From NCBI RefSeq assembly GCF_921293875.1, contig NZ_CAKLDI010000001.1, positions 836,475 to 900,474 on the forward strand: 64,000 nt of DNA. The letters are read 5' to 3'. How positions within the stretch are numbered: position 1 is the stretch's first letter; each line of letters opens with the position of its first letter. Shown here one piece after another: positions 25,325-36,074 of this stretch. Position numbers and translations under genes: made by a program. The stretch comes from Vibrio stylophorae. GTDB taxonomy: Bacteria > Pseudomonadota > Gammaproteobacteria > Enterobacterales > Vibrionaceae. The notes beneath the pieces were generated by a model. That model had not been told where the DNA came from. It was given only the letters and a program-made list of their open reading frames with translations, and made no database searches.

Positions 25325-25720
25325 TTAGATTAAGAAATCATCTAGATTCGCGCCAGCATCCAATTTTTCTTTAAGTGCTGATGGGGTACGGCCTTGGCCA
25401 GTCCAAGTTTTCTCTTCACCGTTTTCATCGATGAATTTGTATTTTGCTGGACGTGGTGCGCGTTTACCTTTGGCTTTTGGCGCAGACTCAGAGAAAAGCT
25501 CTTCTGGGTTGATGCCATCTTTTAAAAGCATTTCACGATATTGTTCTAGTTTAGCAAGGCGTTCTGCATTTGCTTCGCGCTCTGCTGCTTCAGACTCTTC
25601 ACGTTCTGCAATAACAAGCGTTAATTTCTCTTGTGCCTCAACCAATTGTTCAAGTGATAGATCACGAGTTTGCGCACGCAAAGAACGTAGGTTAAGTAGA
25701 ACCTTAATTGCTTCAGACAT
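25325..25720 (-). CDS. hns: H-NS-family nucleoid-structuring DNA-binding protein
   Basis: Global silencer of AT-rich DNA. The 131-residue protein has an N-terminal coiled-coil dimerisation region (about 1-65, rich in Glu, Arg and Ala), a basic linker (KAKGKRAPRPAKY) and a C-terminal DNA-binding domain with the AT-hook-like loop TWTGQGRTP. Length and order are those of Vibrio and E. coli H-NS. A perfect eight-base-pair hairpin lies in the leader, 30-50 bases upstream of the start codon. The AT-rich DNA upstream is a plausible site for self-regulation (inference). Confidence 0.95.
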   Translation of the reverse strand: MSEAIKVLLNLRSLRAQTRDLSLEQLVEAQEKLTLVIAEREESEAAEREANAERLAKLEQYREMLLKDGINPEELFSESAPKAKGKRAPRPAKYKFIDENGEEKTWTGQGRTPSALKEKLDAGANLDDFLI

Positions 25721-26082
25721 AGTTATTAATCCTATTTTATTTTCCTATGAATCAGGGGGAATACCCCTGATACAGGGATATTAGTTATTTCGATTTAAAT
25801 TCTAGCAGCGCTTTTTTTAAAATAAAAGAAAACAAATGATAATGTTCAGATAGGGTTAATTTTCAACATCTTTTTTTTGCAGTGAATATGATGTTGGGAG
25901 AGACTTTACGGTTAAAATTAAATCTATCAGAAATGCTGCAAAATTTATTGCGACGAAGTTCAAGTTCGATTCGAGCAAATGTCGAACCGTGTTTGCACAA
26001 AAAAACACCTATAATGTTACATTCTTCAAAAAGAAATGGTTGCAAATGTGAGCTTTGTCATTAGAATTGGCTGCACCTAATC
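25721..26082. promoter_or_regulatory. Divergent promoter region hns / lysine-riboswitch gene
   Basis: AT-rich gap with no gene. It contains a hairpin ATCAGGGG-GAATA-CCCCTGAT (25750-25770) in the hns leader and a perfect TATAAT (26010-26015) pointing toward the riboswitch. The -35 for the latter is poor. The DNA between about 25800 and 26000 has A/T tracts of the kind H-NS binds. Confidence 0.5.
26010..26015 (+). promoter_or_regulatory. Probable -10 box for the riboswitch transcript
   Basis: A consensus TATAAT lies about 70 bases before the riboswitch aptamer. A start near 26022 would give a leader holding the whole aptamer. No -35 of good quality was found, so this is tentative. Confidence 0.45.
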
Positions 26083-26337
26083 CAGGTAGAGGCGCACTGT
26101 CTATCAGTAGGTTTGGCGAGGTTGACCACCGATGACCCAAATTGAAAGGAGCCCGTGCCGAAGTCTATAAAGCGTCATCTTTGTAGGCTGGGGTCGTTTT
26201 TAATAGGAACGACACTGCCATAGTCAACATTCACTATGGAGCGCTACTGTTGGGGGTCCCAATTGGGGTTTTCTCATCTATCCATGTCATATGGAAACAG
26301 TAGATCTCCAACCAAATAGGTTGTACGAGAGATCATG
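26083..26337 (+). ncRNA. Lysine riboswitch (L-box) with apparent translational switch
   Basis: The aptamer (about 26083-26250) shows the L-box signatures in order: GGTAGAGGCGC, AGTAGGTTTGGCGAGGTTG, GGAGCCCGTGCCGAAGTC, GGCTGGGGTCG, ACTGCCATAGTC and CTATGGAGCGCTAC. P1 pairs GTAG (26086-26089) with CTAC (26244-26247). Downstream, GATCTC (26303-26308) pairs with GAGATC (26329-26334), backed by AACC/GGTT, and hides the bases just before the ATG at 26335. A competing helix joins the 3' P1 strand GGAGCGCTACTGTT (26238-26251) to AACAGTAGATCTCC (26296-26309), 12 of 14 pairs. So lysine binding would free the second strand to mask the start site, and lack of lysine would open it. This is my reading from complementarity, without computed folding. 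Confidence 0.9.
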
Positions 26338-27948
26338 GACATTTCCACTCACGAATATATCAACACAGTTTACTCTGTGATCCCGCCAGTCGTGGCGTTA
26401 ATCCTAGTTCTATTTACCCGTCGGGTGCTGCTTTCTTTGGGCGTCGGCATTCTCTGTGGTGCATATTTTTATGCCGAAGGTGACCTTTGGGGCGCATTTA
26501 AATATCTCGATCATATTACCAGCGCGTTGTTTGTGAACGTTGATGGCGGAAATACATTTTGGAGCGATAAAGTTTCCATCCTCATTTTCCTTATCTGCCT
26601 TGGCGTGATGACTGCATTAATGACCCTTTCTGGTGGTACACGCGCATTTGCACAGTGGGCTCAACGTAAAATTAAAAACCGTCGCGGCGCGAAAATGATG
26701 TCTGCTCTTTTGGGCGTTTTCATTTTTATTGATGACTATTTTAATAGTCTTGCTGTCGGTGCAATTTCTCGTCCTGTAACAGATCAATTTAAAGTTTCTC
26801 GTGCGAAACTTGCCTATATTCTTGATTCAACAGCAGCACCAATGTGTGTAATTATGCCTGCATCAAGTTGGGGTGCCTATATTATTACGCAAATCGCAGA
26901 CATTCTTGAAAAAAACCACATTCATGAGTCTAGTCCGTTAGGCACTTTTGTGACCATGATTCCAATGAACTTTTATGCCATTTTCGCATTATTAATGGTG
27001 CTTGCTGTGGCTTGGTTCCAAATTGATATTGGTCCAATGCGTCGTCATGAGCGTTTAGCACTACAAGGGACTCCTGTTGAAGCGCAGGAAGGTAAAAATC
27101 AAGAAGAGATTGAAATTAAAGAGAGTAGCCAAGGTCATGTTGCTGATTTGGTGATGCCTGTTGTGGTTCTTGTGATTGCAACCATTGGTGCCATGATGTG
27201 GACTGGCGCGCAGGCAATGGCTGCGGATGGTCGCGCATTTACTGTATTGGGTGCATTTGAAAATACCTCAGTGACAGATTCTCTTCTATATAGCGGTATC
27301 ATCGGTGTATTGGCGGCGCTTGTGGGTCCACTTCGCCAGCGTCTACCTCGCGCAGAATTGGTGCATGCCATTAGCATGGGTACCAAATCTATGTTTGGTG
27401 CGATTTTGATTCTTCTGTTTGCATGGAGTATCAGTACAGTGATCGATAACCTACAAACCGGTGCTTATCTGTCTGGTTTGGTGATGGAACATAAAGTAGG
27501 TATTGCACTGATGCCGCTTATTTTCTTCACACTGTCTGGTTTTATGGCTTTTGCAACGGGGACGTCATGGGGCACCTTTGGTTTGATGCTTCCAATCGCG
27601 GGAAGCATGGCGGCGGCATCTGCGGCTAACGACCCAACAACTGCAAGCATGGTACTGCCAATGTTGGCTTCGGTACTTGCTGGCTCTGTGTTTGGTGACC
27701 ACTGCTCACCAATTTCAGATACCACCATTTTGTCCTCAACCGGTGCGCGTTGCTGCCACATTGACCACGTGATGACGCAGTTGCCTTATGCACTTTCTAT
27801 CGCACTTATCTCGATGATCGGTTATGGTGTGCTTGGCTTTACAGAAAGTACCTTTGCTGGCTTTATGACCTGTACGGTGCTGTTTATTGCTTGGATTGTC
27901 TTCTTGCTGATTTTCAACAAAAGACACCCAGAATTAGAAGAAGCATAA
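26335..27948 (+). CDS. lysW: NhaC-family transporter, putative lysine transporter LysW
   Basis: A 537-residue inner-membrane protein with about 11-12 helices, of the NhaC Na+/H+ antiporter superfamily. The family signature [21 protein letters not shown] and [15 protein letters not shown] are present, as is [20 protein letters not shown] near the C-terminus. Membership alone would suggest sodium/proton exchange, but NhaC-like genes under lysine riboswitches have been proposed to be lysine importers (LysW), and this gene sits directly behind such an element. I therefore infer lysine uptake; the ion coupling is open. It is monocistronic with its own terminator. Confidence 0.85.
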
Positions 27949-35897: not shown

Positions 35898-35923
35898 GTG
35901 TTGATTTCCCTATGCCCTAAATT

Positions 35924-35953
35924 AAAAAACCCTTGGAAGAGAGCTTCCAAGGG
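35924..35953 (-). terminator. Histidine operon attenuator terminator
   Basis: On the minus strand CCCTTGGAAG-CTCT-CTTCCAAGGG forms a perfect 10-base-pair stem followed by TTTTTT. It lies between the leader peptide and hisG, as in enterobacterial his attenuators. The hairpin CTGGAAG/CTTCCGG upstream (about 35981-36003) shares GGAAG/CTTCC segments and can compete with it. Confidence 0.9.
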
Positions 35954-36026
35954 TATCGATTGGGTTTGTCCTTTATACCACCGGAAGCTTTGTTATCTTC
36001 CAGTCAGAACGTATCCTCCCGAAAGA

Positions 36027-36074
36027 CTACTCAGGATGATGATGGTGATGAATGACCATTGAGAGAATACGCAT
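36027..36074 (-). CDS. hisL: His operon leader peptide
   Basis: A 15-residue frame reading MRILSMVIHHHHHPE and stopping at TAG has five consecutive histidine codons (CAT CAC CAT CAT CAT). AGGAT lies eight bases before the ATG. Scarce charged tRNA-His would stall the ribosome here and favour the antiterminator over the terminator at 35924-35953. An internal ATG at 36059 would give a 10-residue version. Confidence 0.92.
   Translation of the reverse strand: MRILSMVIHHHHHPE

Follow-up and report, generated by a model that had tools for sequence, protein, structure and literature searches.

A lysine riboswitch predicted to control translation of a lysW-type NhaC transporter gene in Vibrio stylophorae

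The leader of an NhaC-family transporter gene in Vibrio stylophorae raises two questions: whether it is a lysine riboswitch, and how lysine binding could be relayed to the gene. We examined it within a 64,000-nucleotide stretch of contig NZ_CAKLDI010000001.1 (assembly GCF_921293875.1), hereafter the window, whose first base is position 1. In our main reading, to which we assign a probability of about 85%, translation of a lysW-type NhaC transporter is under the control of a lysine riboswitch and is switched off when lysine is bound.

The initial annotation had called this leader an L-box lysine riboswitch. The Rfam lysine riboswitch model (RF00168) bore this out, matching 26079-26254 on the forward strand over the full model (positions 1-182) with 130.9 bits and an E-value of 7.9e-35, far over the gathering score of 30 bits. 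The match spans the aptamer from P1 to P5, and the Rfam alignment places the two strands of P1 at 26084-26089 (AGGTAG) and 26244-26249 (CTACTG). A promoter scan found a candidate sigma-70 promoter, TTGCAA-16-TAGAAT, at 26040-26067 (+), which would put the transcript start approximately 5 bases 5' of the aptamer. TTGCAA...TAnAAT boxes are equally placed in relatives L026, L047, L051, and L059. The aptamer ends 80 bases 5' of the lysW-type gene, a predicted lysine transporter gene with a weak Shine-Dalgarno sequence. RF00168 occurs twice in the genome, and the second copy (L002, G000:C1:384555-384723, minus strand, 91 bits) lies upstream of the aspartokinase gene lysC.

The transporter gene (26335-27948, +) encodes 537 amino acids and matches Pfam PF03553 (Na_H_antiporter) with 274.5 bits against a gathering score of 23. 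Its orthologues in the family are roughly 55-62% identical to it. In a quick tree with long branches, the protein grouped with riboswitch-linked LysW proteins with a branch support of 91, and the genome's four own NhaC-like paralogues fell outside this group. Searching the genome with RF00168 revealed no lysine riboswitch at these other NhaC-like genes. Judged from its riboswitch and from earlier predictions for lysW, the gene most likely encodes a lysine importer that is off when lysine is sufficient. It is unlikely that lysine is just a signal and that the protein mainly exchanges protons and sodium, maintains pH homeostasis, or exports a compound such as tetracycline, as Tet(35). Such roles would suit an NhaC-family protein with a partial score to the NCBIfam Tet(35) model, and a pH role was suggested for lysW in the accessible text of PMC5584792. 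However, the riboswitch is retained before the gene across the order, with RF00168 found in 36 of 40 leaders sampled outside Vibrionaceae, often with a different platform sequence. The riboswitch-free paralogues also argue against such roles, as do sea-otter Vibrio isolates that carry tet35 and tested tetracycline-susceptible (PMC11921324). Farther along the window, a histidine operon leader (RF00514, 75.4 bits) lies before the his operon at 35921-36051 on the minus strand. In many Vibrio relatives, this leader is directly downstream of lysW, implying a lysW-his neighborhood that is conserved but rearranged in the window genome.

The relationship to Tet(35) bears on more than this one gene. 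Tet(35) was the best NCBIfam match of the window protein (NF000013), covering its C-terminal two thirds with 426.4 bits, below the cut-off of 750. Matches over the cut-off occurred in 17 of 197 family genomes, all within open frames of about 540-580 residues. A lysine riboswitch was directly upstream in all of the 20 best Tet(35)-model loci (L119-L138, Vibrionaceae), including the 17 over the cut-off, and the quick tree placed the Tet(35)-model proteins inside the LysW group. The susceptible sea-otter isolates come from a survey of 489 Vibrio isolates in which tet35 was present in all species (PMC11921324). Taken together, the riboswitch at every over-cut-off locus, the tree, and the susceptible isolates make it likely that the catalogued Vibrio tet(35) is the core riboswitch-controlled lysW. 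Tet(35), as judged through the NF000013 model, would then make up the C-terminal ~370 of its ~533 residues. No named tet(35) record turned up in a search of plasmids, nor did a search of the accessible literature turn up a paper connecting tet35 with NhaC or a lysine riboswitch. If true, the presence of tet(35) would say little about tetracycline resistance, and the reported mismatch between genotype and phenotype would be explained. What Vibrio surveillance counts as a tetracycline-resistance gene may thus be a lysine-regulated core transporter.

How, then, could the aptamer act on the gene? Two competing helices had been described between the aptamer and the start codon, and both were located. 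The switch strand GGAGCGCTACTGTT (26238-26251, +), identified by folding and a shuffle test, comprises the foot of P5, the junction, and the P1 3' strand. It pairs at 12 of 14 positions, in blocks of four and eight, with the anti-P1 strand AACAGTAGATCTCC (26296-26309, +), as supported by duplex energy, shuffles, and pairing in relatives. This duplex has an energy of -18.4 kcal/mol, as compared to a mean of -9.2 kcal/mol for shuffles, none of which equaled it (0/200). In the sequestor, the 5' strand GATCTCCAACC (26303-26313, +) folds onto the 3' strand GGTT...GAGATC (26319-26334, +), which covers the weak ribosome-binding region up to the start codon. GATCTC (26303-26308) pairs with GAGATC (26329-26334) and AACC (26310-26313) pairs with GGTT (26319-26322), so that the helix ends at the base directly 5' of the ATG at 26335. 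The energy of the sequestor alone was not beyond chance, as 28 of 200 shuffles were as good; its support comes from strict conservation across leader sequences rather than from energy. The initial annotation had also held the three strands to be mutually exclusive. This is correct for GGAG/CTCC, which alone breaks the sequestor, but not for the upper half of the anti-P1 helix (TACTGTT/AACAGTA), which is compatible with it. The GG of GGAG belongs to the foot of P5, meaning the switch strand must also free two P5-foot pairs.

Conservation of both helices was assessed in leaders from relatives. A total of 93 leaders combined an Rfam-defined aptamer with a usable start codon; 85 of them contain AGATCTC followed by GATC-ATG, and the remaining eight are all from organisms outside Vibrionaceae. 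The anti-P1 helix had 98.9% of cells paired over 24 distinct relatives' rows, with one compensatory change from U-A to C-G on both sides. The sequestor was 88% paired in the relatives' alignment, without covariation. As the motif hardly varies in Vibrionaceae, covariation within the platform is sparse and aligned columns by themselves told us almost nothing; the competing helix is nonetheless kept and shows some compensatory change, in line with what was originally expected of it. Across 50 non-redundant leaders, the anti-P1 duplex outperformed its own shuffles at the 5% level in 33, when about 2.5 would be expected. Elsewhere in the order, an aptamer GGGG goes with a platform CCCC or UCCC, and an aptamer GGAGAGC goes with a platform GCUCUCU. 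Family f9 has a platform strand, GGTTCTCCCT, that can pair with AGGAAGAAC before the ATG, and family f6 has a clear anti-P1 helix but no obvious sequestor by the same test. Judging by these complementary motifs, the same switching logic is realized with different sequences in other families of the order.

Two further groups of leaders emerged from this comparison. A second LysW clade unites L004, L013, L016, and L024 from Vibrionaceae with L207, L208, L209, and L211 from family f25. Its nearly identical leader containing GGTAGATCTCCACC in two families fits the horizontal transfer proposed in the accessible text of PMC5584792. The lysW leaders of Bacillus (L089 and L092) and Psychromonas (L050 and L073) lack AGATCTC and instead have a hairpin followed by a T-run, which is clear in Bacillus and merely terminator-like in Psychromonas. 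These sequences suggest a swap to transcriptional control.

In the window, by comparison, a scan of 25700-26400 found no terminator-like site between the aptamer and the gene, the sole such site in that range being upstream of the aptamer at 25765-25777. Intrinsic termination was rejected on this basis. The initial annotation, which had seen no strong terminator after the aptamer, favored translational control, which is supported over transcriptional control both by the lack of a terminator and by a conserved motif that lies right against the ATG. We considered whether the riboswitch might act mainly on transcription or mRNA decay, through premature intrinsic or Rho termination or lysine-dependent RNase cleavage, with masking of the start being secondary. 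There is some precedent, as in E. coli the lysC riboswitch affects both translation and RNase E decay (PMC5584792). Bacillus L089 and L092 carry their hairpin and T-run at the same position, and an untranslated leader could invite Rho. However, the window has no intrinsic terminator from aptamer to gene and the element that is conserved touches the ATG, which makes this alternative rather improbable relative to translational control.

We then quantified switching between the two helices by folding fragments with different start points, in which the P1 strand was either supplied or withheld. In the window, the sequestor had a probability of 0.96 when the P1 strand was occupied (withheld) and 0.10 when it was free, and GGAG/CTCC reached 0.88 when the strand was supplied. 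With only AG available, that is, with the P5-foot GG not free, the sequestor returned to 0.68. The sequestor probability rose when the P1 strand was unavailable in all 32 non-redundant leaders having an AGATCTC-type platform as in the window (means of 0.87 versus 0.06), albeit remaining below 0.4 in three of the 32 even with the strand withheld. The mean accessibility change at -14 to -4 was small, 0.13 as compared to 0.03 in shuffles, and the window's own value was reached by 13 of 100 shuffles. This metric is too blunt because part of the region sits in the internal loop of the hairpin, and helix probabilities were used in its place.

While fragments switched as the initial annotation had described, the full lysine-free leader kept the sequestor at equilibrium. 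Its ensemble energy was -91.9 kcal/mol with the upper anti-P1 helix plus the sequestor and -88.6 kcal/mol in the ON fold, placing the masked state ahead by 3.3 kcal/mol, a small gap near the usual error of the energy model and opposite to the preference of fragment folding. An equilibrium preference for ON without ligand is expected of a thermodynamic switch but is not needed for a kinetic switch. Equilibrium folding by itself does not prove that the lysine-free leader is ON. Since the full-leader equilibrium does not favor ON, co-transcriptional folding probably matters, and the anti-P1 strand is synthesized before 26319-26334, an order that would favor ON. That the platform is instead a default-OFF hairpin whose anti-P1 helix has no regulatory effect is highly improbable, because the minimum-energy fold of the full leader does retain the sequestor without lysine but anti-P1 pairing in most leaders exceeds chance by a wide margin and tracks aptamer variants across families.

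What the analysis shows is an aptamer and two competing folds, which are conserved and which switch when folded computationally. Lysine binding, the direction in which cells would respond, the co-transcriptional timing, and the transported substrate are inferred. With lysine bound, the ligand expected from the riboswitch family, P1 would hold GGAGCGCTACTGTT and leave AACAGTAGATCTCC free. The GATCTCCAACC part of the freed strand would then pair with GGTT...GAGATC and cover the sequence as far as the ATG (OFF). When lysine is absent, P1 would not be closed and the switch strand would pair with the anti-P1 strand, including GGAG/CTCC, which would break the sequestor and open the start site (ON). 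The putative lysine importer would in this way be shut off when lysine is sufficient. The leader provides a translational platform, well resolved and open to testing, for a lysine-transport switch that is widespread. Its design recurs across families, with a CUCC-type strand that can pair with either the conserved GGAG of the aptamer or the start region.

Lysine riboswitches of lysW were reportedly first described by Rodionov et al. in 2003. The accessible text of PMC5584792 describes them in Vibrionales, Alteromonadales, Aeromonadales, and Pasteurellales, and the arrangement in the window is accordingly a known one. The window shares with those published examples the aptamer family, the NhaC-type gene (COG1757), and the order of elements, and we found no expression-platform detail for lysW leaders in that same text. 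Relative to the LysW proteins found in this analysis, the protein of the window lineage is at most ~62% identical. The E. coli lysC riboswitch likewise joins a lysine aptamer to translational OFF control, which is predicted in the window and described for E. coli in the accessible text of PMC5584792. It differs in controlling aspartokinase and in having an RNase E component, whereas the window leader precedes lysW. As for Tet(35) (NF000013), the window protein itself reaches 426 of the 750 bits, and the loci over the cut-off share the lysine riboswitch of the window.
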